A stretch of DNA of 64,000 bases from Aquipluma nitroreducens (GTDB lineage: Bacteria > Bacteroidota > Bacteroidia > Bacteroidales > Prolixibacteraceae), in assembly GCF_009689585.1 (NCBI RefSeq), contig NZ_AP018694.1, positions 4,579,501-4,643,500 on the forward strand, given 5' to 3'. The stretch's first letter is position 1; each line of letters starts with the position of its first letter. The notes beneath the pieces were generated by a model that was not told where the DNA came from, ran no database searches, and was given only the letters and a program-made list of their open reading frames with translations. Shown one piece after another: positions 1 to 19,367 of this stretch. Both the position numbers and the translations under genes were made by a program.

Positions 1-1
1 C

Positions 2-934: not shown

Positions 935-994
935 TTCAATAGTTTGGTCTGGAATTTGCTAAACCTCTAAAGAAATAATTTAAAACATAACGCA

Positions 995-1510: not shown

Positions 1511-1549
1511 TATTATAAATTTGTCAAAATAAATTAAATCTAGAAAAGT

Positions 1550-2065: not shown

Positions 2066-2087
2066 TAGGATCAATTAAAATATTGAG

Positions 2088-2118
2088 AAAAGCCATCTGA
2101 TTTCAGATGGCTTTTTTA
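2088..2118 (+). terminator. Intrinsic terminator after the ompH pair
   Basis: Stem AGCCATCTG (2091-2099) pairs with CAGATGGCT (2104-2112), 9 bp with a 4-nt loop, followed by a run of six T. It lies between the second ompH and murI, so murI is either transcribed from its own promoter or by read-through. Confidence 0.8.
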
Positions 2119-2141
2119 ATTTTGTTCAAACTCACAGAGAT

Positions 2142-2978
2142 ATGTCACATCAATTTCAACCCATCGGAGTTTTTGATTCAGGATATGGCGGATTAACCAT
2201 CCTGAAAGAATTCATCAACGTTATACCCGAATACGATTTCATTTATTTGGGCGATAATGCACGGGCACCATATGGTTCGCGTTCGTTTGAGGTTGTATAT
2301 GAATATACATTACAGGCAGTGACCAAACTTTTTGAAATGGGATGCCCCTTGGTTATTCTGGCGTGCAATACTGCATCTGCCAAAGCGCTCCGGAATATTC
2401 AGATGAATGATCTGCCTCAGATGGATCCAAACCTGAGGGTTTTAGGCGTTATTCGCCCCGCTGTTGAGGCGATAGGTGATTTTACCCGGAATGGGCATGT
2501 AGGGATACTGGGAACCACCGGAACAGTGCTTTCGAACTCTTACCCAATAGAGCTGGAGAAATGGGCCAACGGGAAAGTTGTGAAAACGACCCAAGAAGCT
2601 TGTCCAATATGGGTTCCTTTGGTCGAAAATAATGAGATCGATTCACCGGGAACCGAATACTTTGTTTCGAAGAATATTAATAATTTATTGTTGGCTGATC
2701 CTGAGATTGATTCAATTATTTTGGGTTGCACGCATTATCCTTTATTATTGCCTGTTATTCAGAAGTTTGTTCCTGAAGATATTCAACTTTTAGAACAGGG
2801 CAAGGTTGTGAGCAGCAAGTTGGTAGAATACTTAAGTCGTCATCCTGAAATGGATCAAAGATGCTCGAAATCAGGAATCGTAAAATATTACACTACTGAG
2901 AATGTTGAAATTTTCGAAAAAAATGCGGCCACATTCATCGGGCAACGAGTGAAATGCGAAAAGGTGATATTGAAATAG
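2142..2978 (+). CDS. murI: Glutamate racemase
   Basis: Cytosolic enzyme (278 aa) that converts L- to D-glutamate for peptidoglycan. Signature elements are visible: GVFDSGYGGLT near the N-terminus (substrate-binding Asp/Ser), the first catalytic cysteine C75 in ACNTAS, and the second catalytic cysteine C196 in LGCTHYP. Length fits the family (250-290 aa). The start at 2142 gives MSHQFQPIGVFDSG, placing the conserved motif at the usual distance from the N-terminus. It is the last gene on the plus strand before a convergent nucleotidyltransferase. Confidence 0.97.
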   Translation: MSHQFQPIGVFDSGYGGLTILKEFINVIPEYDFIYLGDNARAPYGSRSFEVVYEYTLQAVTKLFEMGCPLVILACNTASAKALRNIQMNDLPQMDPNLRVLGVIRPAVEAIGDFTRNGHVGILGTTGTVLSNSYPIELEKWANGKVVKTTQEACPIWVPLVENNEIDSPGTEYFVSKNINNLLLADPEIDSIILGCTHYPLLLPVIQKFVPEDIQLLEQGKVVSSKLVEYLSRHPEMDQRCSKSGIVKYYTTENVEIFEKNAATFIGQRVKCEKVILK

Positions 2979-3030
2979 CAAAAAGGAATTTAGAATCTGG
3001 TAGTTTGGCGGCGAATCACTGACTTTTTCA

Positions 3031-3066
3031 TCCGCTATCAGGTAAAGAACTTTACCTGATAGCGGA
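3031..3066. terminator. Perfect 17-bp hairpin between convergent genes
   Basis: Arms 3031-3047 and 3050-3066 are perfectly complementary (TCCGCTATCAGGTAAAG and its complement) with only two bases between them. It lies between the ends of murI and the convergent nucleotidyltransferase, so it probably stops transcription from both sides. No U-tract is present, so it may work mainly as a barrier or an mRNA 3'-end stabiliser. Confidence 0.6.
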
Positions 3067-3072
3067 CGTTGA

Positions 3073-3972
3073 TTACCAAAGTTTCGCGGGATAGATTCCC
3101 CGATCAGTCAAATTTTGTATTTGTTCAATCACAAATGGTTTATCTTCCTGATAAGTAACTCCAAACCAGGGAGAATCTGCATGTAAAACTTCAACGCTAA
3201 TCAGTCCGGTTTTAATCATTTCGAAAACAACAAAAGGGATGTAGAATTCCGATTTAGGCTGATTAATATGGTTTGTTAAGAAGTCAATGAATTGGGTTTC
3301 TATGTTTTCAAAGATCGAAGGATGAAATCCCCAGAAATTCATCGATACGGTTTCATGTCCGGTTAATTTAATCGTTTTATTCTCCTCCGATTCGCAGAGT
3401 ATTTCGCCTCCTTCAGGTCTTATTTTATGCGTCTCTGTGATTTTAGTTAATCGATTATTCTCGTCAGTTACACAGATTCCCCTTGAAACGGATCCAAATT
3501 CAGATAAGGTATTGTTTAAACGGTAACCTACCATTGCATATTTTTCTGGAGTAATTGCTTGTGTCAAATATTCAGCAATGACCCGGTATGCTTCAGCTCC
3601 ATAAAAATCATCGGCATTTATCACGGCAAACGGTTCGCTAATAGCATCTTTTGCCATCAACACAGCATGGCCAGTTCCCCAAGGTTTTTCACGTCCCTCA
3701 GGCAACTGAAATCCTTCAGGGAGCATATTGGTTTCCTGATATACATAGCTGATTTCAATTTTACCTGCAAGCTTGGATTCAAAGCGGGTTTTAAAACTTT
3801 CTGCAAAACTTTCACGAATAACAAAGACTACTTTGCCAAAGCCAGCTCTGATCGCATCATAAACTGAATATTCCAAAATTGTTTCACCATTTGGGCCAAC
3901 AGGTTCTATTTGTTTTAGTCCGCCAAAACGACTACCCATACCAGCCGCAAGAATTAAAAGAGTTGGTTTCAT
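3073..3972 (-). CDS. Sugar-phosphate nucleotidyltransferase
   Basis: A 299-aa protein of the NTP-transferase (GT-A-like) superfamily. The N-terminal nucleotide-binding signature LILAAGMGSRFGGLKQIEP is clear, and INADDFYG at about residue 115-122 carries the metal-binding Asp residues. Such enzymes join an NTP to a sugar 1-phosphate (or a related phosphate) to make an activated precursor; the exact substrate cannot be read from the sequence. It is a single gene, convergent with murI and co-oriented with the MFS gene upstream of it, from which a terminator separates it. Confidence 0.85.
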   Translation of the reverse strand: MKPTLLILAAGMGSRFGGLKQIEPVGPNGETILEYSVYDAIRAGFGKVVFVIRESFAESFKTRFESKLAGKIEISYVYQETNMLPEGFQLPEGREKPWGTGHAVLMAKDAISEPFAVINADDFYGAEAYRVIAEYLTQAITPEKYAMVGYRLNNTLSEFGSVSRGICVTDENNRLTKITETHKIRPEGGEILCESEENKTIKLTGHETVSMNFWGFHPSIFENIETQFIDFLTNHINQPKSEFYIPFVVFEMIKTGLISVEVLHADSPWFGVTYQEDKPFVIEQIQNLTDRGIYPAKLW

Positions 3973-4081
3973 TATATGTATTTTTATGTTGTATTTTTTT
4001 TAATTTGGTAAAGCAAAATTAGGCATTTATCTTGTTTTTTTCTGATAAACACAAATATTCAATCGATGTTTGTTTTAAAAG

Positions 4082-4108
4082 AAAAGGATGTCAGCCTGAC
4101 ATCCTTTT
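4082..4108 (-). terminator. Intrinsic terminator of the MFS gene
   Basis: GGATGTC (4086-4092) pairs with GACATCC (4098-4104), extended by AAAA/TTTT on both sides (4082-4108). Read on the minus strand it lies 30 bp after the MFS stop codon and ends in a T-run. Confidence 0.7.
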
Positions 4109-4136
4109 CTTTTAATTTATTCTATCTATCGGAAGT

Positions 4137-5459
4137 TTATTTTGTTTTAGGGAATTTCTTTTTAATAATTATTGAAAGTCCAATAAAAGCAATAATCAAA
4201 ATAACGGGTAAGATGGACATGTTTCTTAAAGTGGTTTGAGGACCTGATGTTTCGATTGATTTTCCCATAATTGGTAAAACCATGGAGGTGGCAACAAAGC
4301 CGGCCCCACCCAAAATTGACATTCCCAATGCGCCACTTTTGGGCACATACTCCGACGCTACGCCAATCATAGTTGGCCAGAAATAACAGACACCAACGGC
4401 AAACACTGCTGCTGAAAGTAAGGTCATAGCAGCACCATTGGAAATACTGAGCAACCATAAACCTACAGTAGCGATCACTGATGATCCCAGTAAAACTCCT
4501 GTTGGATTTAAACGGTGTATCAGACCTCCGGCGAAATAACGCCCAATGGCCATAATTCCTGTTACAACAACCAGTATAATCATTGGATTGATTCCGTTGG
4601 TCTCCAGTAGTGCATTAATCCATTGTGTTGTCCCCAACTCGGTGGAGGCGGTTAACAACATACAAAACAGCACCAAAGGAAATAATAAACTGATTTTATT
4701 GATTGCTCTTCCTTCAATAAGGACCAAAATCAAAATAATGCCAACGGCGATATAAGGATAAATACTGTCGAAATTTAAGCTTAATGATGGAACAGATGCA
4801 ATCAAGATCATTACTATCACGGTTGCAATTATTGTAAATGGGGCACCAACATTCCTCATCATCTCTTTGTAGCTTACACCACTCGAAACACGTTCTGTTT
4901 CCGGAATTTTCTGTCCCCAAAATAGAAACCCGTATATTGCCAATGGAATGAATAAAAGGCTTACCAATATCTCCCAGCGAAGGTTGAGTGTATCCATAAC
5001 TAGCCAAGCCAGTATTCCTCCAATTACAATTCCGCCAGGAAACCAAACATGAAACCGATTTAGCATTTTTGTTTTGTTATTGGGAAATAAAGTGGCAATA
5101 AGCGGATTGCATGCAGCTTCAACACTACCATTTCCGAAACCAATAAAAACATTTGCAATAAATAATGAAGTCATGTCTTTAGCTAACAGTAAAAGCACAA
5201 TTCCAATTAAGTGCATTCCAAAAGCCATCCTAATTATTGTTTTGGTTTTTACAAGGTCAATAATAAAACCACCAGCAAACATGGCAACAGCAAATCCCCA
5301 GAAAGCCGGTCCAAATGCATAGCCAATTTGCTCTTTAGTTAAGCCATAGTCAGTTGAAAAAACGCCCTCAATTTTAGCCCTGATAGCAAAAGTAATTGCT
5401 GTAACTAATAGCGCCAGACAAGCTGCAATAAATAGTCTTTTTTGATTTACATTTTCCAT
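4137..5459 (-). CDS. MFS transporter, FucP-like sugar permease family
   Basis: A 440-aa integral membrane protein with about 12 hydrophobic segments, of the major facilitator superfamily. The N-terminal half contains GPAFWGFAVAMFAGGFIIDLVKTK, which resembles the MFS loop 2-3 motif, and FIGFGNGSVEAACNPLIATLFP, typical of the fucose/glucose permease (FucP-like) branch. The likely role is proton-coupled sugar or sugar-derivative uptake through the inner membrane; the substrate is unknown. It stands alone on the minus strand, with 620 bp of non-coding DNA upstream. Confidence 0.85.
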   Translation of the reverse strand: MENVNQKRLFIAACLALLVTAITFAIRAKIEGVFSTDYGLTKEQIGYAFGPAFWGFAVAMFAGGFIIDLVKTKTIIRMAFGMHLIGIVLLLLAKDMTSLFIANVFIGFGNGSVEAACNPLIATLFPNNKTKMLNRFHVWFPGGIVIGGILAWLVMDTLNLRWEILVSLLFIPLAIYGFLFWGQKIPETERVSSGVSYKEMMRNVGAPFTIIATVIVMILIASVPSLSLNFDSIYPYIAVGIILILVLIEGRAINKISLLFPLVLFCMLLTASTELGTTQWINALLETNGINPMIILVVVTGIMAIGRYFAGGLIHRLNPTGVLLGSSVIATVGLWLLSISNGAAMTLLSAAVFAVGVCYFWPTMIGVASEYVPKSGALGMSILGGAGFVATSMVLPIMGKSIETSGPQTTLRNMSILPVILIIAFIGLSIIIKKKFPKTK

Positions 5460-5719
5460 AAGCTCATTTTCGTTAGTTAATATTTATGTCGATTATTTAG
5501 GTTTGAATCTAATGCATTACTTGTTAGATGAGTCGTGCGGATTTTAAAGCCTATTGAAGAAGGATTCGAAGGGTTCATAAGTTTATGATCTTGTTAGTTA
5601 GTTGTAAATGTAGGAAAAAATCAGAACAGAATATATCACTTGAGAAGGAGATAAATTTTCTTTTTTGAATGATTTATAATTGACTTTGATGAAATTGAAA
5701 AGTCAAATGATGTATTTTA
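5460..5719. other. Non-coding stretch upstream of the MFS gene
   Basis: No supported gene is seen. The region is AT-rich, should contain the promoter of the leftward MFS gene, and ends where the tandem duplication begins at 5720. No clear terminator or palindrome was recognised. Confidence 0.5.
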
Positions 5720-5795
5720 CAGATTCTAATAAACACGTAAAGCCCGATAAAAATCGAGCTTGTTATGAGGGTAATATGTGATTCAATTAACTTTT

Positions 5796-5980
5796 AAAAC
5801 CGGAATGGTTTCGAGCAAGTACCTGGTTGAACATGAACAATTAAGGAACAAGTACCAATCGAAGGCCTAAGCCGGGCGAACAACATTAACTATTTTTAAG
5901 AACTATTAAAAACTGGTTTGGATTTCGTGAATACCTGGTTTGAACAAGAACAATTAAGGAACAAGTATTAACCGAAGACC
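5796..5980 (+). repeat. Two imperfect ~70-bp direct repeats (A, B), copy 1
   Basis: A (5796-5866) and B (5907-5980) share the pattern AAAAC-TGG-TGG-TTTCG, TACCTGGTT, GAACA-GAACAATTAAGG, AACAAGTA, A-CGAAG. A shorter third element C lies at 6002-6041 (GAACAATTG, AAAGGAACAAGTATTAATC). They sit in the non-coding 3' region of the 509-aa gene. The same core occurs in inverted orientation just upstream of the peptide gene (7889-7935). Confidence 0.85.
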
Positions 5981-6079
5981 CGAACAACAACAAGATTTTA
6001 AGAACAATTGATAATAAAGGAACAAGTATTAATCATTAAAACATATAAAGAACAAGATTGCGAACGAACTAAGAATATA

Positions 6080-7609
6080 TTATTCTGAATATTTTATTTT
6101 ACCAAGGATTGATTGAGCCTTTTGCTGGTAGAATCCTTCGTTTTTAGCTATTTTCTTAAATTGTTTGTATGCTTTTTTGTTTTCATTGGTTTGCAGGTAA
6201 CAAAGCCCGATATACCACTCGGCCTGTTCGGTAAAAAGGTTGTCTTTGTCAACAATTACAGTTTCGTACTCTTTGATTGCATTTTGGTATTTGCCGGTTT
6301 CCTGAAGCGAGATCCCTGAGTAAAAATGCCCAACCATATTGTTTTGATCTTTGCTTATCACCTCGCTGAAAAGATCCAGGGCTGCATTATAGTCTTGATT
6401 TTCAAATTTTTGCAAAGCTTTTGTAAGCGTTTGGTTTGCAGTTAAGTTTGCAGAACGAACGATACCTGTAGCTTCATATTTGTTGTAGAATTTCTGATAG
6501 ATATCTTCCTGGGACGATTGTCTGGACAAAATTCCGGTAATACCCAATAAAAGTATAATAGATGCAGCAACTGTTGATACGAGGATACGTTTGGCTTTAA
6601 ATTTTCCGGAGAATGATCGCTCTGTTTGTTTGTTTGCTGCTATTTCACCTGCAATGTTTTGAAGATTGTTTCTCAACTGCATGACATCGGTTTCGGATAG
6701 TGCCAGATCGATGTTTTTGATTAACTCGATCTCATCCATCAATTTCTGATTCGATGTTAATTCAGCTTCAAACGAAGCCAGTTCTTCATTGGAAAGCTCA
6801 CTGTGGATGTAGCTTTCGAGTTCTTTTATATTTGCAGATGACTGAAATTCAGATCTTTGTATTTTGTTTAAAGAAGCTCTTAGGTTGATGATGTCGCTTT
6901 CAGCTGCTGCATGGTCAATTTCCTTGATTAGGCTTACTTCGCTGGCCAGGTCAGAATTGATTGCCAATTCTTCTTCAAATTGAATTTTAAGCTCCGAATC
7001 CATCTGGTTATAGATGTAATCTTCGATCTCTTCAACTGAATATTGGTGAGCCGGGATACTTTGAGCAACCTGCATTAAATTAGCCCTTAAATCAAATATG
7101 TCATGTTCTTCCAGTGCATTCTGGATGTCATCGAACAGTTCTTCTTCGAATGGACTAAATCCTGATTCTTCGTTACTTACAGAATTTGTGTCAAATTGTT
7201 CTTTATAGAACTGATGGATATTTTCCTTTCCGGCAATTTGGTGTTGATAAAGATGAATCTTTGGGAAAGAATGTCCGAAGTTGAAAATATCATCTGGATT
7301 GAATTGAGCATTACTGCTTTTTTGTGATGAAAATTCTTCAGTTAATCCAAAGCTGAAAGAATCAAAAACGCTAATATTTTCAATAGATGCACTTTCAGCC
7401 TGATTTTGAACGATTTGGTTCAGCGTGTTGCGTAGACTGATAACGTCCTGTTCGCACATGGCCTGTTCCACATCCAGATGAAGATTTACTTCTTCATTCA
7501 AGTCCGAATCGATCTCCAGTTGGATTTCAAATTCTTTTAACTCCGGTAGCGTTAATTCCGAGTTAAGGTACTTGTCTGTCTGTTCAAAATATTCTGATTT
7601 GCGTATCAT
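6080..7609 (-). CDS. Membrane anti-sigma-like protein with TPRs, copy 1
   Basis: A 509-aa protein without a signal peptide. The N-terminal half repeats a module of the form Y(L/I)xxELxxxELxxFExxLxxxxxLxxEVxLxxDxxxAxxExDVxxLRxxL at about residues 8-67, 194-251 and 262-320, with a partial one at 155-184. This helical Glu-rich module resembles the cytosolic part of Bacteroidota anti-sigma/TPR proteins. One TM segment lies at about residues 341-362, followed by a TPR region (390-500) that should face the periplasm. A stretch FDSFSFGLTEEF (83-94) resembles the 42-aa peptide encoded just upstream. Expected role: membrane-bound regulator of the nearby sigma factor; this is inference. Identical to the copy at 8409-9938. 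Confidence 0.8.
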   Translation of the reverse strand: MIRKSEYFEQTDKYLNSELTLPELKEFEIQLEIDSDLNEEVNLHLDVEQAMCEQDVISLRNTLNQIVQNQAESASIENISVFDSFSFGLTEEFSSQKSSNAQFNPDDIFNFGHSFPKIHLYQHQIAGKENIHQFYKEQFDTNSVSNEESGFSPFEEELFDDIQNALEEHDIFDLRANLMQVAQSIPAHQYSVEEIEDYIYNQMDSELKIQFEEELAINSDLASEVSLIKEIDHAAAESDIINLRASLNKIQRSEFQSSANIKELESYIHSELSNEELASFEAELTSNQKLMDEIELIKNIDLALSETDVMQLRNNLQNIAGEIAANKQTERSFSGKFKAKRILVSTVAASIILLLGITGILSRQSSQEDIYQKFYNKYEATGIVRSANLTANQTLTKALQKFENQDYNAALDLFSEVISKDQNNMVGHFYSGISLQETGKYQNAIKEYETVIVDKDNLFTEQAEWYIGLCYLQTNENKKAYKQFKKIAKNEGFYQQKAQSILGKIKYSE

Positions 7610-7750
7610 TTTGTTGTTTCTTAGAGTATTATAAGGCCTGAAATGGCGTTATAAAAGTGTTCAGTCTCCTGCTGTTTTGATCCAAAAGAAAAATTTGGAC
7701 TACAAGCAATCGAATGATAATAAAAAATGAATGATTTAATCTGGAAGAAA

Positions 7751-7879
7751 TTAGTTCAGATCAGCATATGAATCTGCAACTTTCCCACCTTTTACTAAAG
7801 AAAGTTCTTCAGCAGTTAACACGTCGAAAGAGAAAGAATCAAAATTTTTTGTTTCGTTGTTCGCAAATAAAGTTTTCAT
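7751..7879 (-). CDS. 42-aa double-glycine-leader peptide, copy 1
   Basis: A short ORF (ATG at 7879, TAA at 7751). The sequence begins MKTLFANNETKNFDSFSFDV, continues LTAEELSLVKGGK and ends VADSYADLN. The block LTxEELxxVKGG matches the leader consensus of double-glycine secreted peptides (bacteriocin/RiPP-like and Bacteroidota GG precursor families). Cleavage after G32 would release a 10-residue KVADSYADLN. The gene sits 141 bp upstream of the 509-aa gene in the same direction, probably co-transcribed. No dedicated C39-protease ABC exporter lies in this window. The motif and its identical second copy support it as real, but its function is unknown. Confidence 0.7.
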   Translation of the reverse strand: MKTLFANNETKNFDSFSFDVLTAEELSLVKGGKVADSYADLN

Positions 7880-7888
7880 TACTTTTGA

Positions 7889-7935
7889 TTTTAATGATTA
7901 ATACTTGTTCCTTAATTATTCTTGTTCGATGGTTT
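7889..7935 (-). promoter_or_regulatory. Conserved 5' element of the peptide gene, inverted copy of A/B/C repeats
   Basis: On the minus strand, directly upstream of the peptide ATG, lies GAACAAGAATAATTAAGG followed by AACAAGTATTAATCATTAAAA. The last 25 bases (7889-7913) are a perfect inverted copy of 6017-6041. A 30-base stretch matches 5942-5971 with one mismatch. It probably belongs to the 5' untranslated region or promoter; the exact role is unknown. Confidence 0.6.
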
Positions 7936-8124
7936 ATCCCTGAATCAGGCAAAAGGTAACCCCAGTATTTAGAAAAAAAATGAAATTTTTTTATTGAATT
8001 TGTTTAAGTTGCTTATATTCTGCTTGTTGATTATTAGAATTTTTTCCTCAGATTCTAATAAACACGTAAAGCCCGATAAAAATCGAGCTTGTTATGAGGG
8101 TAATATGTGATTCAATTAACTTTT

Positions 8125-8309
8125 AAAACCGGAATGGTTTCGAGCAAGTACCTGGTTGAACATGAACAATTAAGGAACAAGTACCAATCGAAGGCCTAAG
8201 CCGGGCGAACAACATTAACTATTTTTAAGAACTATTAAAAACTGGTTTGGATTTCGTGAATACCTGGTTTGAACAAGAACAATTAAGGAACAAGTATTAA
8301 CCGAAGACC
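8125..8309 (+). repeat. Imperfect direct repeats A and B, copy 2
   Basis: Same elements as 5796-5980, shifted by 2329 bp; element C is at 8331-8370. Here the non-coding stretch 8049-8408 separates the second 509-aa gene from the first peptide gene. No other feature is seen in it. Confidence 0.85.
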
Positions 8310-8408
8310 CGAACAACAACAAGATTTTAAGAACAATTGATAATAAAGGAACAAGTATTAATCATTAAAACATATAAAGAACAAGATTGCGAACGAACTA
8401 AGAATATA

Positions 8409-9938
8409 TTATTCTGAATATTTTATTTTACCAAGGATTGATTGAGCCTTTTGCTGGTAGAATCCTTCGTTTTTAGCTATTTTCTTAAATTGTTTGTATG
8501 CTTTTTTGTTTTCATTGGTTTGCAGGTAACAAAGCCCGATATACCACTCGGCCTGTTCGGTAAAAAGGTTGTCTTTGTCAACAATTACAGTTTCGTACTC
8601 TTTGATTGCATTTTGGTATTTGCCGGTTTCCTGAAGCGAGATCCCTGAGTAAAAATGCCCAACCATATTGTTTTGATCTTTGCTTATCACCTCGCTGAAA
8701 AGATCCAGGGCTGCATTATAGTCTTGATTTTCAAATTTTTGCAAAGCTTTTGTAAGCGTTTGGTTTGCAGTTAAGTTTGCAGAACGAACGATACCTGTAG
8801 CTTCATATTTGTTGTAGAATTTCTGATAGATATCTTCCTGGGACGATTGTCTGGACAAAATTCCGGTAATACCCAATAAAAGTATAATAGATGCAGCAAC
8901 TGTTGATACGAGGATACGTTTGGCTTTAAATTTTCCGGAGAATGATCGCTCTGTTTGTTTGTTTGCTGCTATTTCACCTGCAATGTTTTGAAGATTGTTT
9001 CTCAACTGCATGACATCGGTTTCGGATAGTGCCAGATCGATGTTTTTGATTAACTCGATCTCATCCATCAATTTCTGATTCGATGTTAATTCAGCTTCAA
9101 ACGAAGCCAGTTCTTCATTGGAAAGCTCACTGTGGATGTAGCTTTCGAGTTCTTTTATATTTGCAGATGACTGAAATTCAGATCTTTGTATTTTGTTTAA
9201 AGAAGCTCTTAGGTTGATGATGTCGCTTTCAGCTGCTGCATGGTCAATTTCCTTGATTAGGCTTACTTCGCTGGCCAGGTCAGAATTGATTGCCAATTCT
9301 TCTTCAAATTGAATTTTAAGCTCCGAATCCATCTGGTTATAGATGTAATCTTCGATCTCTTCAACTGAATATTGGTGAGCCGGGATACTTTGAGCAACCT
9401 GCATTAAATTAGCCCTTAAATCAAATATGTCATGTTCTTCCAGTGCATTCTGGATGTCATCGAACAGTTCTTCTTCGAATGGACTAAATCCTGATTCTTC
9501 GTTACTTACAGAATTTGTGTCAAATTGTTCTTTATAGAACTGATGGATATTTTCCTTTCCGGCAATTTGGTGTTGATAAAGATGAATCTTTGGGAAAGAA
9601 TGTCCGAAGTTGAAAATATCATCTGGATTGAATTGAGCATTACTGCTTTTTTGTGATGAAAATTCTTCAGTTAATCCAAAGCTGAAAGAATCAAAAACGC
9701 TAATATTTTCAATAGATGCACTTTCAGCCTGATTTTGAACGATTTGGTTCAGCGTGTTGCGTAGACTGATAACGTCCTGTTCGCACATGGCCTGTTCCAC
9801 ATCCAGATGAAGATTTACTTCTTCATTCAAGTCCGAATCGATCTCCAGTTGGATTTCAAATTCTTTTAACTCCGGTAGCGTTAATTCCGAGTTAAGGTAC
9901 TTGTCTGTCTGTTCAAAATATTCTGATTTGCGTATCAT
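8409..9938 (-). CDS. Membrane anti-sigma-like protein with TPRs, copy 2
   Basis: Residue-for-residue identical to the 509-aa protein at 6080-7609: repeated Glu-rich helical modules in the N-terminal half, one TM segment (about 341-362), C-terminal TPRs. This copy is the one nearer to the divergent TPR-CHAT gene, so it is probably the original partner, with the other arising by duplication. Its upstream peptide gene (10080-10208) is 141 bp away. Confidence 0.8.
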   Translation of the reverse strand: MIRKSEYFEQTDKYLNSELTLPELKEFEIQLEIDSDLNEEVNLHLDVEQAMCEQDVISLRNTLNQIVQNQAESASIENISVFDSFSFGLTEEFSSQKSSNAQFNPDDIFNFGHSFPKIHLYQHQIAGKENIHQFYKEQFDTNSVSNEESGFSPFEEELFDDIQNALEEHDIFDLRANLMQVAQSIPAHQYSVEEIEDYIYNQMDSELKIQFEEELAINSDLASEVSLIKEIDHAAAESDIINLRASLNKIQRSEFQSSANIKELESYIHSELSNEELASFEAELTSNQKLMDEIELIKNIDLALSETDVMQLRNNLQNIAGEIAANKQTERSFSGKFKAKRILVSTVAASIILLLGITGILSRQSSQEDIYQKFYNKYEATGIVRSANLTANQTLTKALQKFENQDYNAALDLFSEVISKDQNNMVGHFYSGISLQETGKYQNAIKEYETVIVDKDNLFTEQAEWYIGLCYLQTNENKKAYKQFKKIAKNEGFYQQKAQSILGKIKYSE

Positions 9939-10079
9939 TTTGTTGTTTCTTAGAGTATTATAAGGCCTGAAATGGCGTTATAAAAGTGTTCAGTCTCCTG
10001 CTGTTTTGATCCAAAAGAAAAATTTGGACTACAAGCAATCGAATGATAATAAAAAATGAATGATTTAATCTGGAAGAAA

Positions 10080-10208
10080 TTAGTTCAGATCAGCATATGA
10101 ATCTGCAACTTTCCCACCTTTTACTAAAGAAAGTTCTTCAGCAGTTAACACGTCGAAAGAGAAAGAATCAAAATTTTTTGTTTCGTTGTTCGCAAATAAA
10201 GTTTTCAT
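10080..10208 (-). CDS. 42-aa double-glycine-leader peptide, copy 2
   Basis: Identical to the peptide at 7751-7879 (ATG at 10208, stop at 10080), with the leader block LTAEELSLVKGG and a 10-residue tail. It is divergent from the TPR-CHAT gene (ATG at 10371), so the 162-bp gap must hold both promoters. The inverted repeat element upstream of copy 1 is conserved here at 10218-10264. Confidence 0.7.
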   Translation of the reverse strand: MKTLFANNETKNFDSFSFDVLTAEELSLVKGGKVADSYADLN

Positions 10209-10217
10209 TACTTTTGA

Positions 10218-10264
10218 TTTTAATGATTAATACTTGTTCCTTAATTATTCTTGTTCGATGGTTT
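10218..10264 (-). promoter_or_regulatory. Conserved 5' element of peptide gene, copy 2
   Basis: Same element as 7889-7935. It lies in the shared intergenic region between the leftward peptide gene and the rightward CHAT gene, where it could also influence the latter. Confidence 0.5.
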
Positions 10265-10370
10265 ATCCATGAATCAGGTAAAAGGTAACCCTGTAATTAG
10301 AAAAAAAATTAAAAAATTAGAATTGATCTTTTTTTTCTGTAATAAATACTTTAGATAAATTAGTGTGAGT

Positions 10371-13235
10371 ATGAAGAAAATATTTTTTATGATCTTTATT
10401 TATATATTTTCTTCTTCTGTCTTTGCCTTGGATAAAAGGTCTATTGATCAGGATAGCTTATTGTCTCTTAAGCTTCAAAAAGATGGGATTGCTGCGGGTA
10501 GACTTGGTGATTTTGAGTTAGCATTGAAGAATTTTGAGCAATTGTATAAACTCCGTCAGAAGATGTATGGAGTTAATAGCGTTCGCTTGGCTTCCCCATT
10601 AATTAATATTGGAATTCAGTATAAAAACCTTGGAAATTTCGATAAAGCGATAGAATCGTATAAGAAGGCTGAATCTTTGTGTCTTAATGATATGGGAGAC
10701 AATAATCTTATGCTGGGAACGGTTTATGTTAATTTAGGTAATATCTTTCGTCTTGATGGCGATTATAATCAAGCATTAGAATATCAGAAAAATGCTTATC
10801 GTATTTTAAAAAAGGATAGTGCAAAATATATCATGAATTTTCAGGATTCAAAGTATAACATTGGAGAGACACAATTAAAACTCGGAAACAATAAGGAGGC
10901 AATCAGATTTACTCAATTGAATTTAATGACTATTTCGCCTCAATTAAAACCCTTATTGTATGATTTGATTGCTTCTGCATATAGAAATGAGGGTGAGTAT
11001 GAATTGGCTGAACTAAATTATTTAAATGCTATAAATACTTGGATAAAATTATATGGATATTATAGTGAAGGAGTAATATCTGAATATCTTGCTTATTCAT
11101 CATTTCTTATGTCTCAGAAAAATTATGAAAAGGCTCTGCTATATTCTACTAAGGCAAAATCAATTGTTTTAAAGTTTTACGGTGAAAAAAGCACAACATA
11201 TGCTGAAGTGCAGTCAAATTTTGGTGATTACTACTATTTGAAAAATTCTGAAGCTGGACAAATTGATGATTTTCGTGCGCAAAGGAAGAAGTATCTAAAT
11301 GAAGCAATTCAGTACTATCAAAATTCAATTGTTTCACTCGTTGATTCTTTTCAAATCAAAGATCCTTTTGCTGAACCTCCTTTAAAAAATGTAATTTCAG
11401 ATATCCAATTGGTAGAAGTGTTTAAGAAAAAGGCTCTGTCAATGGAGAAACTTGCTGATATCTATTTATCGGAGTTCGATTATAAAAATTCGATTAAATA
11501 TTATAACGCAAGTTTAAACTCACTCTCTAATGCAATAGATCTAATACACCGCCTGCAGATTGGATTTGAAAATGAGGACAGTAAATTCTTTTTGTCTCAG
11601 AATCAGGAATCAACTTTTTTAGAGGCAATAAACATTTCTTATAAATTGTATAGTCAGACTAAGAGGTTTGAGTTTATTGAGAAGGCTTTTGAATTTTCTG
11701 AAAGAAGTAAGTCCTCCAATTTACTTGCATCAGTTAAAGATGTTAAGGCTAAAGAATTTGGAGGAATTCCAGATTCTTTGATGAAAAAGGAGAACATTTT
11801 AAAAGGTAATATCGCGAGTTATAACTCTTTGTTATTTGAAGAGAATCATTCTGAAAAACCAGATTCTCAGAAAGTCAATTTGTATTCGGCAAAAATATTT
11901 AAGTATAATGAAGAATATAATCGATTGATCGATTCGTTTGAGAAGTTATTTCCACAGTATTATGCGCTAAAATATGAAAACAAAGTTGTTGGTATAAAGG
12001 AGATACAATCTAAAATAAGTAACCGTCAATCATTTTTGGAATACTTTGTTAATGAGCCGGAAAGTAAAACCGGTAAAGGAGAAATTTATCGCTTTTTAAT
12101 CACAAAGGATTCAGTAAATTTTTCAAAGGAGAGTGTTGATTATTCGTTTGTAAATAACATTCAGTCAATTCATGATTTCCTGGTTAATCCCAATTACCTT
12201 TATACCAAGAAGAAGGATTTTGTGGAATATTCGGTTGCTGCTTATGGATTGTATGAAAAACTAATAAAACCTGTTGCAAAAAAGTTGAATGGTACAAGTC
12301 TGACTATTATCCCACACGATAAACTTTCATACATTCCATTTGATGCATTATTAACGCAGTTGCCCGATACAAGTGTCATGAACTTTAGAAATTTGAATTA
12401 TTTGGTTCGTGATTATGCGATTAACTATAGCTATTCGGCAACTCTCTTGTATGATTATTTTGATCAGAAAAAAAGAAGTTCAAAAAGCCTTCTGGTATTT
12501 TCTCCGAAATATGATTCGCAGGAATCAAGAATCGATCCTGAAACTGCGGTTTCTTACATTCTGAGCCCTTTGCCAGGCGCCAAAGACGAAGTAAAAGGAA
12601 TATCAAAGTTTGTTTCATCAGTTTCATTTGTTGATGAGCAAGCACAGGAAAATACCTTCAAAGAAAAAGCTTCAGAATTTGATATTTTGCATTTGGCCAT
12701 GCATACGATCATCAATGATAGTGTGCCGATGCTATCGAAATTGGTCTTTTCGAAACCTGATCAAAAGTCAACCGATGATGGGTATTTGAATGCCTACGAA
12801 ATTTATAATATGAAACTCAATGCTCGTTTGGCTGTTTTGAGCGCGTGCGAAACTGGTACTGGTAAACTTCAAAGAGGGGAAGGAGTAATGAGTATGGCTC
12901 GCGGGTTTATTTATGCCGGGTGTCCATCTATAGTAATGACTTTATGGCAAGTTGAAGATAAATCGGGAGTGAAGATAATGGAAGACTTTTATAAATATTT
13001 GTCGAAAGGGAAACGAAAAGATGTGGCGCTTCGAATGGCAAAACTAAATCATCTTAATAACTCTGATCCTTTAACTGCCCATCCTCATTTCTGGCTCGGA
13101 TATGTTAATATTGGCAATCCGGAACCTTTATATACAAGTAAGGATGTTTATTTTGTAATTTTTCTTTTTATCACTCTGCTCGTGGTTTTGGCTGATTGGC
13201 AATTTCGAAGGAGAAGGCAAAAGCGAAGAAATTAG
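10371..13235 (+). CDS. TPR-CHAT protease-like protein, secreted and membrane-anchored
   Basis: A 954-aa protein. The ATG at 10371 is preferred over the in-frame GTG at 10365 because it gives a clean signal peptide (MKKIFFMIFIYIFSSSVFA). Residues about 30-440 are a series of TPRs (for example NIGIQYKNLGNFDKAIESYKKAE). The CHAT domain (caspase-HetF-associated, clan CD cysteine peptidase fold) spans about 620-925, with both catalytic residues present: His778 in DILHLAMHT and Cys826 in VLSACETG. A hydrophobic segment (VIFLFITLLVVLADW) and a basic tail end the protein. This predicts an inner-membrane anchor with the TPR-CHAT part in the periplasm. It lies between the anti-sigma-like genes and a sigma factor, suggesting a regulated protease acting on a signalling partner; the substrate is unknown. 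Confidence 0.88.
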   Translation: MKKIFFMIFIYIFSSSVFALDKRSIDQDSLLSLKLQKDGIAAGRLGDFELALKNFEQLYKLRQKMYGVNSVRLASPLINIGIQYKNLGNFDKAIESYKKAESLCLNDMGDNNLMLGTVYVNLGNIFRLDGDYNQALEYQKNAYRILKKDSAKYIMNFQDSKYNIGETQLKLGNNKEAIRFTQLNLMTISPQLKPLLYDLIASAYRNEGEYELAELNYLNAINTWIKLYGYYSEGVISEYLAYSSFLMSQKNYEKALLYSTKAKSIVLKFYGEKSTTYAEVQSNFGDYYYLKNSEAGQIDDFRAQRKKYLNEAIQYYQNSIVSLVDSFQIKDPFAEPPLKNVISDIQLVEVFKKKALSMEKLADIYLSEFDYKNSIKYYNASLNSLSNAIDLIHRLQIGFENEDSKFFLSQNQESTFLEAINISYKLYSQTKRFEFIEKAFEFSERSKSSNLLASVKDVKAKEFGGIPDSLMKKENILKGNIASYNSLLFEENHSEKPDSQKVNLYSAKIFKYNEEYNRLIDSFEKLFPQYYALKYENKVVGIKEIQSKISNRQSFLEYFVNEPESKTGKGEIYRFLITKDSVNFSKESVDYSFVNNIQSIHDFLVNPNYLYTKKKDFVEYSVAAYGLYEKLIKPVAKKLNGTSLTIIPHDKLSYIPFDALLTQLPDTSVMNFRNLNYLVRDYAINYSYSATLLYDYFDQKKRSSKSLLVFSPKYDSQESRIDPETAVSYILSPLPGAKDEVKGISKFVSSVSFVDEQAQENTFKEKASEFDILHLAMHTIINDSVPMLSKLVFSKPDQKSTDDGYLNAYEIYNMKLNARLAVLSACETGTGKLQRGEGVMSMARGFIYAGCPSIVMTLWQVEDKSGVKIMEDFYKYLSKGKRKDVALRMAKLNHLNNSDPLTAHPHFWLGYVNIGNPEPLYTSKDVYFVIFLFITLLVVLADWQFRRRRQKRRN

Positions 13236-13298
13236 GTTCTTTGAGGTAATTCAGGATATTTAAATTTCATCAATGTGCTTTCAAACGACAAGATCTGA

Positions 13299-13883
13299 TT
13301 AATTATCGCCACTTAAAATTTTATTGTATTCAAGATCTTGTTTAATGCTTTTAATTAAGTATTCCTTACATTTAAACTTACGTTTTTTAGCATATTTTTC
13401 ACTCTTGAATCCCATGATCTGAGCAATATTCTTAAGTGGAACTTTGTCGAAATACAACTGCAATATTTTCTGGCAATCTTTTCCTAAATTAATAAAATGC
13501 TTTTGATATAAACGGTAGCGTTCGTTTAGATCAGCCACTTTTTCTAACCCATCATCATATAAATCTTCATGGTATTCATGATTGTCTTTAATCTTTTCCT
13601 TTTCAATTTTTCTTTTCTCAAGCTGTTTAAGCCATAGGAATCGGCAAACTGAGTATAAATAAGTTTCAAAAGTACAATCTAAAACCAACTCATTGGCTTT
13701 TAACTTTCTGAAAATAATAATGATTGCCTCCTGAAATATATCATTTGCATCATCATCATCGCCACTGTTTTTTTTGATGAAAAAATTAATCTTGGAATAG
13801 AAATTCTTATAGATATATTGCAATACAATAGTATCATTTCTTCGAATCCCATTTAACAGGTCAAGGTTTGAATAATCGATCAT
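13299..13883 (-). CDS. Sigma-70 family (ECF-like) RNA polymerase sigma factor
   Basis: 194 aa. Region 2 is visible at about residues 20-95 (LQYIYKNFYSKINFFIKKN, then DANDIFQEAIIIIFRKL, the usual D-x-D-x-x-Q-E-x-F-like block). Region 4 is at about 135-185, with an HTH (LKNIAQIMGFKSEKYAKKRKFKCKEYL). Very Lys- and Ile-rich and AT-rich, like other sigma factors that accompany CHAT/TPR genes in Bacteroidota. It is convergent with the CHAT gene (63-bp gap), and the anti-sigma-like 509-aa proteins are 3.4 kb away. It probably directs transcription of this locus. Confidence 0.85.
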   Translation of the reverse strand: MIDYSNLDLLNGIRRNDTIVLQYIYKNFYSKINFFIKKNSGDDDDANDIFQEAIIIIFRKLKANELVLDCTFETYLYSVCRFLWLKQLEKRKIEKEKIKDNHEYHEDLYDDGLEKVADLNERYRLYQKHFINLGKDCQKILQLYFDKVPLKNIAQIMGFKSEKYAKKRKFKCKEYLIKSIKQDLEYNKILSGDN

Positions 13884-14255
13884 CGCAAGAGATTAAATTA
13901 TTTAAAATGATTTAGGCAGCAGGAAAACTCTAAATTCATTCCGGCTTAAAAATCACTATAAAATGTTGAAAATGCAAATGTTTTTAATCGATTTTCCTTC
14001 AGAATGTCTACAAATAAGGCACTTCCTATTGATTTGTTGAATTCCAGGTCTTCTTCCGTTGAATATTTTAACTAAATTCAGATAAATTGAAGTTCGATGA
14101 AATACTATATTTAATGATAAGTTGTTGTTAATCTGTACGTATTTCGTGTAATTCAAAAAAACACTACGGATTCTTTTTGAAATAGGGAGTTGAAATTTGA
14201 GGAATAATTGATTTTGCAATGATGGAGATCTTTGAAAGGAAAACATATAAAAACA
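13884..14255. other. Non-coding stretch upstream of the sigma factor
   Basis: No supported gene; a 96-codon open frame on the minus strand (13956-14246) has a composition unlike coding DNA here and no recognisable motif. The sigma-factor promoter must be in this region. Confidence 0.4.
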
Positions 14256-14284
14256 AAAAGGTAGAACCTCTGTCCTACCTTTTC
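14256..14284 (-). terminator. Intrinsic terminator downstream of the TonB-like gene
   Basis: AAAAGGTAG (14256-14264) pairs with CTACCTTTT (14275-14283), 9 bp with a 10-nt loop. On the minus strand it is followed by a T-rich tract. It lies 140 bp after the TonB-like stop codon. Confidence 0.65.
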
Positions 14285-14320
14285 TCTCTTAAACTAACTA
14301 ACCTAACTAAACCTAAACTT

Positions 14321-14347
14321 ATGAAAAAAAATGTATTACAAATGTAG
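14321..14347 (+). other. 8-codon leader-like ORF
   Basis: ATG at 14321 gives MKKNVLQM then TAG. It is preceded by an unusual CTAA/CCTAAACT-rich run (14290-14320), a pattern that resembles the 5' leader of receptor genes in this phylum. No continuation follows. It could be a relic of a lost gene's 5' end or chance. Confidence 0.25.
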
Positions 14348-14423
14348 GGGTTGACATTCTAAAATTATGAAAATAATTGTTAAATGATGTTAAAGTTATT
14401 GTGCCCTCTACATTAATCTGATG

Positions 14424-15155
14424 TTACTGAGCCACAAATCGGTAGGTGATTGTTCCTCGTTGTACCGATGGTGCTTTTTGATCTGAATTAAATACAGTAC
14501 GTTCAGCCGCCTGTGTCGCATATAAAGGTAGCATTGGATCTTTTAAATTATTTGATGATCTGGCTTCAGCTTTAATTACGTTTCCTGCTCGGTCAACCTG
14601 TATGTCAACTGTAATTGAACCTCCACTTTTGGCTAAAAAAACGGGTATTGGAAGGCGGACGTGAAAGCGGTTTTCAAGAAAATAGTGAATATTGCTTTTC
14701 CCAGAGTATATTGTGTTTTTTATTGAATCAGGGTTTTGTCCTTCGGTAACGGCCTCAGGCATCTCAAATTTCTTTGTTTGAGGTATTTTTTTTGAAAGTT
14801 GTTTATTCACATTACTGACCATTTTTTCGGCTTCTTCAATGTCGTGTTTGTAGCTGGCATCAAAGAATTTATCTTTTTTCATGGCGTCATTTACCGCACG
14901 GTTGCTTCCCATATTCTGATCATACGTATTTTTCTGATCGGTGCTATTCTTATTGCCTTGTGTTTTCTCTGGTTCGGGAGTATCAACTTTTTCAGGAGGT
15001 AAAACAAAATCTAGCAAAATAGTTTCTTCTTTTTCGGTTTTTATTTTGAAATGTAGCTCTTCTATCCAAAAACCTGTCATCAACAAGATATGAAAGATCA
15101 GGGTTCCCATAACCCCGTACATGTTTCTTCTATATAATTCTTTTATATTCAGCAT
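14424..15155 (-). CDS. TonB-like energy transducer
   Basis: 243 aa with the TonB/TolA layout: a cytosolic start, one N-terminal TM segment (about 14-31, GVMGTLIFHILLMTGFWI), a Pro/Glu/Lys-rich linker (LLDFVLPPEKVDTPEPEKTQ), a charged spacer and a C-terminal domain of about 75 residues (GGSITVDIQVDRAGNVIKAEARSS...). It should couple the proton-motive force to outer-membrane TonB-dependent transport. It is not next to ExbBD or a receptor here, so its receptors are elsewhere. Divergent from the barrel gene at 15269. Confidence 0.8.
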   Translation of the reverse strand: MLNIKELYRRNMYGVMGTLIFHILLMTGFWIEELHFKIKTEKEETILLDFVLPPEKVDTPEPEKTQGNKNSTDQKNTYDQNMGSNRAVNDAMKKDKFFDASYKHDIEEAEKMVSNVNKQLSKKIPQTKKFEMPEAVTEGQNPDSIKNTIYSGKSNIHYFLENRFHVRLPIPVFLAKSGGSITVDIQVDRAGNVIKAEARSSNNLKDPMLPLYATQAAERTVFNSDQKAPSVQRGTITYRFVAQ

Positions 15156-15268
15156 TTCGTCGCAAATTTAATAAAATCGACTATTACTGAATCATGAATT
15201 TCTAGGTTGGCAAAGCTTTTTATAAATAAAAAGATAATTTTAGAATTTGGAATAGAATACATGAAAGC

Positions 15269-17107
15269 ATGAAGATTGCATTGTTTACTATAATTCTCCT
15301 CTCTTCGTTAACCCTTGCCGGTAAAGATGTGCTTATTCAAAATTGTGACACTTTGAAAGCTGTTACTTTTGATAAAAGCAATAAGCTATTCTATGATAGT
15401 TTGCAAATTAGGGCTTCCCGTCATCGGGTAACCAGATGGCTCTATGGTACCATGATCCGTTCTGCCAGAGATTCAGGAAATGTTGATTTTCAGTCGTACG
15501 AATACTATAAAAGTTTTCAGAAAAAGACTATTGGCACAATTTCAATTCGGTCGCTTAAGATATTTGGGCCTAATTTCGATGATACATTGAAAACTACCAA
15601 CATTTGGATTGAAAAAGCAGCCAATACATTACATTCCCAATCGAACTTGTATGTTATCCGGAAGAATTTATGGATCAGAGAAGGTCAATCGCTCGATCCT
15701 GACCTGATGATGGATAATGAACGACTTCTTCGAAGTTTACCCTATCTGAAAGATGTCCGGATTGTCATTACACCACGTCCGCTAAATAATGATTTGGTTG
15801 ATATTCTTATTCTTACTCAAGATGTTTTTTCGTTTGGCGTTACAGGAGGCATTGGAAGTGTAAATAAGGGAGAAGTTGGTATCTATGATAAAAATATTTT
15901 GGGCGTTGGGCACGAGGCTGGTGTCACCATCGTTGCACATACCGACAAAGCTCCACACATCGGCTTTGAGTCTTATTATTCAGTAAATAATATCATGGGA
16001 AATTTCATTAATTTCTCTACCGGATATGCAAATACTTACCTGCATCAGGAATTGTTTCTTTCTCTTCAACGCGATTTCTTACGGCCACAATCTGTTTATG
16101 CAGGTGGGTTCACTACTATGCGAAGTTTCAGGACAGATCGAGTATATTTGAATAATAATGTGATTAGCACAGATCCTTTGAATTATATTTATCTTGATGG
16201 GTGGTATGGCAGGCGATTAAAGCTAGGAATCAGACCCAACGACAGTCGTTTCCAGATGACTCTTTCAGGGCGTATCAGATATACTCATTTTTATGACCGA
16301 CCGTTGCCCGATAGTAATAACAATCAGTATTTCGCCAATAGCAAATTTTATTTGGGAAGTTTAAGTTTCTCGCATCGGTCGTATGTCCGGGATTATTTGG
16401 TTTACAGCTATGGAATTACTGAAGATATCCCGAAGGGGTATTTGTGTGAACTGGTTTTTGGGTACGATCACAATGAGTTTAATGATAGGTGGTATTCTCA
16501 TGTATTTTTGTCGACCGGCAATCTGTTTAAAAATAAACCATTTTATTTATACACCTCTCTTGGGGTTGGAAGTTTTTTTAATCAATCGCATACCGAGCAG
16601 GGAATGGCCGACTTGAAGTTCGATTTTATTTCGCCACTTTTTCAAGTTTTGAATGTTCAGGCAAGGCAATTTATCAAATTAAATTATACGATTGGAATTA
16701 ACCGGTTCGATATTGAAAATTTGTTGTTGCTGAATAGTAATGGCATCAGAGGGTTTGGAAGTCTCATTGGTAAAGGAAAGCAACGTTTGACTTTAAATGT
16801 TGAAAATGTATTCTTTCAGAAAAAAGCAGTTCTGAATTTTAAGACTGCTTTATTTTCTTTTTTCGATGTTGGAATTGTTGGGCCATCTGAACAATCCATA
16901 TTCAAGCAAAGCTATTATGCCGGTTTGGGCCTTGGTCTTCGAATTCGAAATGAAAATCTTGTGTTCAAGACCATTCAGCTCCGACTAGCCTGGTATCCCA
17001 ATCATCCGAGCGATGTAAATTCCATCGGTTTTATTCTCGATGGGGTTTCTAAAACCCGGTTTTATAATTTTCAGCCGCGTGGCCCGGAACCTTTACGTTT
17101 CGAATAA
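15269..17107 (+). CDS. Omp85/BamA-TamA-like outer membrane barrel protein
   Basis: 612 aa with a signal peptide (MKIALFTIILLSSLTLAG). After an N-terminal segment, residues about 85-185 look like one or two POTRA-type modules (IRSLKIFGPNFDDT..., NLWIREGQSLDPDLMMDNERLLRSLPYLKDVRIVI: the FTAT-like repeat of POTRA domains). The remainder is beta-rich (VFSFGVTGGIGSVNKGEVGIYDKNILGVGHEAGVTIV) and fits a 16-strand barrel. It is a second Omp85-type protein, distinct from the BamA fragment at the window start. Its substrate is unknown. The neighbouring divergent TonB-like gene may be unrelated. Confidence 0.75.
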   Translation: MKIALFTIILLSSLTLAGKDVLIQNCDTLKAVTFDKSNKLFYDSLQIRASRHRVTRWLYGTMIRSARDSGNVDFQSYEYYKSFQKKTIGTISIRSLKIFGPNFDDTLKTTNIWIEKAANTLHSQSNLYVIRKNLWIREGQSLDPDLMMDNERLLRSLPYLKDVRIVITPRPLNNDLVDILILTQDVFSFGVTGGIGSVNKGEVGIYDKNILGVGHEAGVTIVAHTDKAPHIGFESYYSVNNIMGNFINFSTGYANTYLHQELFLSLQRDFLRPQSVYAGGFTTMRSFRTDRVYLNNNVISTDPLNYIYLDGWYGRRLKLGIRPNDSRFQMTLSGRIRYTHFYDRPLPDSNNNQYFANSKFYLGSLSFSHRSYVRDYLVYSYGITEDIPKGYLCELVFGYDHNEFNDRWYSHVFLSTGNLFKNKPFYLYTSLGVGSFFNQSHTEQGMADLKFDFISPLFQVLNVQARQFIKLNYTIGINRFDIENLLLLNSNGIRGFGSLIGKGKQRLTLNVENVFFQKKAVLNFKTALFSFFDVGIVGPSEQSIFKQSYYAGLGLGLRIRNENLVFKTIQLRLAWYPNHPSDVNSIGFILDGVSKTRFYNFQPRGPEPLRFE

Positions 17108-17115
17108 TTCCTGAT

Positions 17116-19248: not shown

Positions 19249-19367
19249 CGATAATGATTTTAGGAAAAAGTCAATGGTCATTAGGAAAAACTATTTTCGA
19301 ATGACTGATGACTATTTTTTTGATTTGTTGCAAATGTAAATTGAAAATCTGTTCGGAAAACAATTAT

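Follow-up and report, generated by a model that had tools for sequence, protein, structure and literature searches.

Within a 64,000-nt stretch of the single-contig 5.71-Mb genome of Aquipluma nitroreducens (positions 4,579,501-4,643,500; hereafter the window) we identified a gene set encoding a TPR-CHAT protease (CHAT), an extracytoplasmic function (ECF) sigma factor, an anti-sigma-like membrane protein (ASF) and a peptide with a double-glycine (GG) leader. This gene set is a conserved module of Bacteroidota. In our judgement, held with moderate confidence, it is best explained as a membrane-spanning sigma/anti-sigma relay in which CHAT would act as the protease of ASF. The initial annotation of this DNA had placed four such component types (TPR-CHAT, sigma factor, anti-sigma-like protein with one transmembrane (TM) segment, GG peptide) within positions 5720-13883, and all four are encoded there:

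5720..7939, no strand: copy 1 of an exact 2,220-bp tandem direct duplication, a letter-for-letter match to 8049-10268
6080..7609, minus strand: ASF copy 1, 509 aa, with anti-sigma-like modules, TM and TPRs (domain and topology prediction)
7751..7879, minus strand: GG-leader peptide copy 1, 42 aa (TIGR01847 14.3 bits, below the cut-off of 15.7)
8049..10268, no strand: copy 2 of the duplication, identical to 5720-7939
8409..9938, minus strand: ASF copy 2, a duplicate identical to copy 1
10080..10208, minus strand: GG-leader peptide copy 2, 42 aa, a duplicate of copy 1, divergent from CHAT
10371..13235, plus strand: TPR-CHAT protease, 954 aa (ATG at 10371, alternative GTG start at 10365; Pfam CHAT 201 bits, cut-off 24)
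12702..12704, plus strand: codon of catalytic His778 (from alignment; 954-aa numbering)
12846..12848, plus strand: codon of catalytic Cys826 (from alignment; 954-aa numbering)
13299..13883, minus strand: ECF-type sigma factor, 194 aa (TIGR02937 49.2 bits, cut-off 42.9; Sigma70_r2 29.1 bits, cut-off 24)

The two peptide-ASF pairs (minus strand) are thus followed by CHAT (plus strand) and by the sigma gene (minus strand), which is convergent with CHAT.

Co-occurrence of these gene types beyond chance, which the initial annotation had set as a test, was confirmed both for genomes and for loci. In an order-wide survey of 198 genomes, based on the best bit score per genome, a sigma match of at least 90 bits was present in 53 of the 62 genomes with a CHAT match of at least 250 bits and in 9 of the 136 others (Fisher p 4e-29, kinship ignored). 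ASF matches of at least 60 bits were distributed similarly (52/62 versus 5/136). Several of the p values given in this work are inflated by relatedness. CHAT of at least 350 bits was present in 47 genomes; 45 of these contained a sigma match (E<=1e-15), and in 31 genomes the best matches for CHAT and sigma were no more than 10 kb apart; several of the unlinked cases sit on short contigs. Merging of copies at 95% CHAT identity left 127 loci (not genomes) from all sources. When loci were picked by CHAT alone and had at least 3 kb on both sides (n=61), 51 contained both sigma and ASF, and 54 contained at least one of them. The set of all 75 fully flanked loci, which additionally includes the window and 13 loci fetched for known sigma or ASF matches, gave 65 and 68, respectively. 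The GG pattern, the bit and hidden Markov model thresholds and the mechanical open reading frame (ORF) calls used in these analyses are our own choices.

Chance proximity of genes without a functional tie could draw on the variable gene order (of 92 loci, 61 have sigma and CHAT convergent, 25 divergent and 6 on one strand) and on the 7 of 61 CHAT-alone loci that lack sigma and ASF alike. It is nevertheless highly improbable, and we reject it on the basis of the co-occurrence, the linkage at CHAT-alone loci and the promoter motif shared by genes of the module (see below).

In a CHAT scan with named matches, the best 80 of 563 confirmed places ranged over Prolixibacteraceae, other Bacteroidales, Chitinophagales, Cytophagales, Saprospiraceae and Aquimarina, with one metagenome-assembled genome labelled Chlorobiota; among the matches listed, the nearest named relatives of the window CHAT were Prolixibacteraceae. 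The window genome itself yielded one match in the CHAT family search. Of the 75 fully flanked loci, 28 have a HisKA/HATPase-type gene no farther than 5 kb from CHAT, and its position is frequently behind ASF. A recurrent order is kinase-ASF-GG peptide / CHAT / sigma / PCAT-HlyD (e.g. loci L148, L149, L152, L159 and L170), where PCAT and HlyD denote a peptidase-containing ABC transporter and its partner. There are no CRISPR genes among the annotated neighbours of the recurring module, in agreement with the CRISPR-free system envisaged initially.

The window CHAT has a signal-like N-terminus, TPRs, the CHAT domain and a C-terminal TM followed by a basic tail. Its His/Cys dyad (His778 and Cys826) is intact, as first noted, and all 58 aligned CHAT sequences, among them that of the window, retain it. 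Across the CHATs examined, an N-terminal hydrophobic stretch is present in 73 of 89 and a C-terminal TM in 88 of 89, and the charge distribution places the body of the protein outside the membrane in 86 of 88; CHAT is therefore predicted to be periplasmic and membrane-anchored. The best-scoring structural matches of the CHAT model are the proteases of Craspase (type III-E CRISPR). CHAT-domain searches of PDB sequences returned no CHAT match, and the likeness to the Craspase protease Csx29 is seen by fold comparison only. In two loci, two tandem CHAT genes are present within one module (L057:1749-8456 and L058:5555-12263).

ASF contains one TM (at about residues 339-360) and a TPR domain (393-504), while a 60-residue helical module, repeated three times in full and once in part, makes up its N-terminal portion (residues 5-324). 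Pairwise alignments among modules 1, 3 and 4 score 102-124, compared with shuffled means of 30-31. The typical relative, of about 250 aa, has one module, a TM and a TPR domain. Among 97 complete ASFs, 85 are shorter than 321 aa and 9 exceed 400 aa, both identical window copies being among the nine. Long ASFs of Prolixibacteraceae have three to four tandem anti-sigma-like modules, most relatives one, and several of these long proteins also have in common a cytosolic stretch resembling SFPKIHLYQH...ENIHQFYKEQ. A TM was predicted in 92 of the 97 ASFs and an N-in orientation, judged by charge, in 90, which would place the TPRs in the periplasm. The membrane-spanning layout suggested at the outset thus holds at the level of prediction, and by these topologies CHAT and the TPR domain of ASF would share the periplasm. 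We refer to ASF as anti-sigma-like from its position, its architecture and weak profile matches.

The linker between the TM and the TPR domain of ASF is variable (mean entropy 3.0 bits) and modelled with a pLDDT of 56 in the AlphaFold2 prediction. Its lone near-invariant residue is Arg385 (91/97), followed by Ser in 71 sequences; the entropy of this column is the third lowest among columns 258-509, and two of the six ASFs without the aligned Arg have Arg-Ser nearby. Proteases of clan CD frequently cleave after Arg. Given this preference and a near-invariant Arg in an otherwise variable linker, we propose R385|S386 as a candidate site of cleavage by CHAT, encoded in the window as follows:

6455..6457, minus strand: Arg385 codon of ASF copy 1, candidate cleavage site (conservation 91/97, entropy 0.34)
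8784..8786, minus strand: Arg385 codon of ASF copy 2, candidate cleavage site (as for copy 1)

A likeness between the peptide and the 509-aa ASF, the string FDSFSF, was dropped; in a close relative the corresponding strings are FDSISF (peptide) and LDAFSF (ASF), and the string is too poorly conserved.

Most module loci further carry a gene for exported cargo, which is of two types. The GG peptide of the window (MKTLFANNETKNFDSFSFDVLTAEELSLVKGGKVADSYADLN) has counterparts in many loci: of the 86 module loci for which 500 bp or more of upstream sequence was available, 48 have a GG-leader ORF no more than 1.5 kb upstream of CHAT, and in the non-redundant set 64 of 65 such ORFs lie on the strand opposite to CHAT. 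Their density upstream of CHAT is 1.19 per intergenic kb, versus 0.032 elsewhere in the same loci. These relatives were found with our own leader pattern, and their likeness is partly due to this construction. The nonsynonymous and synonymous substitution rates (dN/dS) of five species pairs, three of which share one sequence, were 0.10/0.30, 0.09/0.56, 0.18/0.88, 0.16/1.02 and 0.20/1.49; dN below dS fits real genes. Two 63-aa plus-strand ORFs, which overlap the minus-strand GG peptides of the window, were rejected as peptide genes. Four tandem GG-peptide paralogues are present at L051:6537-7458, and another four upstream of CHAT in L096.

The second cargo type is a protein of about 411 aa exported by the type IX secretion system (T9SS), which takes the place of the peptide in 19 of the 86 module loci. 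The T9SS signal Por_Secre_tail (Pfam) was detected in 9 of 9 such proteins examined (in one below cut-off), and the genes are co-directional with CHAT in 21 of 22 cases. No module locus contains both cargo types. A first screen found neither type in 19 of 86, although in two of these (L080 and L138) the pattern had missed a GG-peptide-like ORF located behind the promoter motif. The p values for exclusive cargo (2e-5, 5e-4 and 6e-9) treat loci as independent and are overstated, because cargo type follows the CHAT tree: on the best tree T9SS cargo changes 6 times, and starred branches force at least 2 of these changes (with L080, L138 and L078 labelled GG by hand). Among peptide loci with full flanks, 23 of 36 have a C39 PCAT gene nearby, versus 4 of 32.

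Genes of the module are linked further by a common promoter sequence. Expectation maximization (EM) applied to 64 peptide upstream regions gave GGGTtACCTTTT followed by GGaAT, with a log-likelihood of 507 versus 96 and 98 for shuffled sets, and separate EM runs on 91 sigma and 20 T9SS-cargo upstream regions recovered the same core. The resulting sigma-associated promoter motif is GGGTTACCTTTT-N-GGAAT, of which GGGTTACC is a part. Sites of at least 15 bits within 250 bp upstream of a gene precede peptides in 43 of 60 cases (these being the training set), sigma genes in 26 of 91, T9SS genes in 8 of 20 and kinase genes in 4 of 38, compared with 1 of 622 other genes and 1 of 96 ASF genes; none was present before CHAT (0/92), PCAT (0/31) or HlyD (0/26). 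Column-permuted motifs matched almost no held-out peptides. The placement of the motif depends on the layout of the locus. Where ASF stands apart from sigma (21 loci, the window one of them), the motif precedes the cargo in 16 loci and sigma in 2, while in the 62 loci in which sigma adjoins ASF it precedes sigma in 24 and the cargo in 26; ASF is therefore often located behind a motif promoter by one route or the other. Since the motif is shared by peptides, sigma genes and T9SS cargo and is nearly absent before other genes, the cargo and, in many cases, the anti-sigma are probably under the control of the sigma factor. ECF sigma factors usually autoregulate, from which we infer that it is this sigma factor that reads the motif.

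In the window, the motif precedes each peptide-ASF pair:

7936..7963, minus strand: promoter motif before peptide-ASF copy 1, 33.0 bits
10265..10292, minus strand: promoter motif before peptide-ASF copy 2, 25.2 bits

Both copies of the duplication carry the GG peptide and ASF, and the pair is thus present twice. This repetition may be an assembly artefact, yet the sequence outside the 2,220-bp block diverges (34 nt at 79%, then dissimilar), with the motif retained at both copies.

We also scanned the window genome with a pattern of the motif. With the correct spacing 10 sites were found, some of them inside ORFs, versus 3 in the control; with spacing one base longer there were 2 versus 2, and the bare 12-mer core gave 6 versus 8. 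The enrichment is therefore limited to the core combined with the correctly spaced second box. The three best genome sites outside the window score 22.4-27.2 bits, above the 19.0-bit background, and the genes behind such sites are only candidates for regulon members. A 27.2-bit site is located upstream of a 73-aa ORF without Pfam match (L192:2728-3018), and a 26.1-bit site upstream of genes for two secreted proteins, one of 179 aa and the other a TPR protein of 1,979 aa, whose N-termini are related (L190:2205-9041). A 22.4-bit site precedes two genes, one GH108 lysozyme-like and one holin-like (L191:3078-4287; G000:C1:4056500-4065500), the term holin-like being our own reading, with no Pfam match. 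These two genes are a possible lysis output of the same sigma factor.

This last site is one reason to consider a role in antiphage defence, in which CHAT would report infection or envelope damage, sigma would trigger a defence output, and the peptides would be effectors. Structural relatives of CHAT also function in or near defence, namely Craspase and DdvA, whose sigma factor DdvS controls an antiphage island. A PADLOC search, on the other hand, matched the three window proteins only to generic TPR models (E 1.2e-4 and 0.0077) and, weakly, to Cas2 (E 0.03-0.06), and there was no defence gene among the 7 annotated clusters of 14 other recurrent neighbour clusters. We regard a defence role as improbable.

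Taken as a relay, the module could operate as follows. The ECF sigma factor would be held at the inner membrane by ASF, with the anti-sigma modules in the cytosol and the TPR domain in the periplasm. A cue would act on the periplasmic, membrane-anchored TPR-CHAT, which would cut ASF in the TM-TPR linker, most likely at R385|S386, and so serve as its site-1 protease. An M50 site-2 protease would then complete the release of sigma (an M50 gene is present in the window genome, as in all 14 control genomes). Freed sigma would turn on GGGTTACCTTTT-N-GGAAT promoters, and the output would be exported cargo, i.e. the GG peptide, presumably via C39 PCAT and HlyD, with a T9SS-secreted protein in its stead in other lineages. 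Depending on the layout, sigma would also raise expression of the sigma-ASF or peptide-ASF operon, leading to feedback through the inhibitor of sigma itself. The window contains the peptide-ASF operon twice, each copy with its own promoter.

A cargo gene close to CHAT, taken as a peptide no more than 1.5 kb upstream or a T9SS gene no more than 3 kb away, is present in 67 of the 86 module loci. This raises the alternative that CHAT chiefly processes the cargo, while an ordinary site-1 protease cuts ASF and the relay merely co-regulates cargo and enzyme. The shared direction of CHAT and the T9SS genes noted above makes read-through into CHAT conceivable. Such a maturation role is unlikely, however: no CHAT gene is preceded by the motif, there is no visible co-induction of CHAT in peptide loci, where the peptide points in the opposite direction, and the conservation of Arg385 is left unexplained.

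The position of the GG peptide behind the sigma-associated motif bears on its function, as it makes the peptide look first of all like an output. The initial annotation had let the peptide or another cue activate CHAT; its account of the linked genes is supported (by recurrence, predicted topology and Craspase-like fold), while the role of the peptide has to be altered accordingly. The exported peptide might still be an autoinducer that binds the periplasmic TPRs of CHAT or ASF and triggers cleavage in a quorum or self-sensing loop. This is a possible but doubtful reading: the loci with a T9SS protein instead, and those with neither cargo in the first screen, indicate that the peptide is dispensable for the core, and the TPR matches are generic. 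Rather doubtful, too, is the full pheromone loop, in which a sigma-made, exported GG peptide would be sensed by periplasmic CHAT, leading to a site-1 cut of ASF at the linker Arg, with a T9SS protein replacing the peptide in sister lineages.

A number of observations weigh against the relay with CHAT as the ASF protease, in addition to the seven CHAT loci without partners. Profile matches of ASF to anti-sigma factors are weak: NF052375 matched 10 of 34 members (best 2.1e-10) and zf-HC2 2 of 34, and the window ASF reached 25 bits against an NF052375 cut-off of 100. The structure comparison of ASF, which effectively covered only residues 385-509 (the TPRs), listed no anti-sigma structure. Arg385 could be conserved for structural reasons instead; in Craspase, the cut that Csx29 makes in its substrate Csx30 falls between residues 427 and 429 and does not depend on any one residue (PMC10028731). 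Regarding the promoter, the EM runs on sigma and T9SS upstream regions had no shuffled control of their own, sites precede only a minority of the sigma genes (the 26 of 91), and with a motif trained on 40 peptides, just 7 of the 20 that were held out had a site reaching 15 bits. The window sigma gene has only a weak site (10.1 bits, 358 bp upstream), and three more sites of at least 15 bits (17.2, 19.0 and 16.4) occur elsewhere in the 64 kb, so the score is telling only near gene starts. As for export, the only C39 match of the window genome is a PCAT and HlyD pair (728 and 438 aa; L189:3905-7489) elsewhere in the chromosome, unlinked to the module, and no GG peptide was found beside this pair. 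Finally, all of the evidence is computational.

The proposed relay shares features with several known systems. As in the regulated intramembrane proteolysis of the anti-sigma factors RseA and RsiW, it would involve a membrane anti-sigma, release of sigma by proteolysis (proposed here) and an M50 protease, which is present. PrsW is a site-1 protease of anti-sigma; the site-1 enzyme proposed here, in contrast, is neither DegS nor PrsW but a cysteine protease of CHAT type, with its gene next to the module. Double-glycine peptides of streptococcal competence are exported by C39 PCAT/HlyD, and the putative GG leader and the PCAT and HlyD genes at many module loci resemble this arrangement, with the difference that the module peptide is tied to a sigma/anti-sigma/CHAT set. 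Separase, also among the closest known proteins, is eukaryotic and differs in substrate and place.

Actinobacterial ECF54 factors, with a model member from Geodermatophilus, have CHAT-domain proteins in their gene context; proteolytic control was proposed and an anti-sigma was proposed to be absent (PMC8999054). Compared by that description, the window sigma shares the CHAT context, but an anti-sigma-like ASF is present here. In the DdvS/DdvA system of Myxococcus xanthus (PDB 8rot and 8rw5, by title; PMC12288465, PMC4374960), the sigma factor DdvS controls an antiphage island. DdvA and the window CHAT have a TPR-CHAT-like fold in common; the CHAT-like part of DdvA, however, lies within the transmembrane anti-sigma polypeptide, whereas the window and the mapped loci have separate genes, together with exported cargo.

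Craspase comprises Csx29 (TPR-CHAT), Csx30 and CASP-sigma (PMC10028731). The window CHAT shares with it the TPR-CHAT protease fold and the His/Cys dyad, at 12% identity, but is predicted to be periplasmic and membrane-anchored, with a TM-TPR protein as the candidate inhibitor. Compared with the published description of Csx30, ASF differs in its predicted TM and periplasmic TPRs. Neither Cas7-11/gRAMP nor a CRISPR partner was found among the window genes and annotated neighbours (the whole genome was not searched); the largest ORF overlapping window positions 1-20000 encodes a 973-aa SNF2-type protein.

Our searches of the open literature turned up no paper on CHAT with sigma in Bacteroidota, and none on a module of this phylum that joins these two to a membrane anti-sigma and an exported cargo, which is no proof of absence. 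If our interpretation is true, a caspase-like CHAT protease controls a transmembrane sigma switch outside CRISPR, and an exported-peptide or T9SS output is tied to this switch; one candidate cleavage residue, one promoter motif and one peptide offer direct and cheap handles for testing it. Considered together with Craspase, DdvA and ECF54, the module points to CHAT-to-sigma signalling as a design that recurs in bacteria and not a CRISPR oddity.

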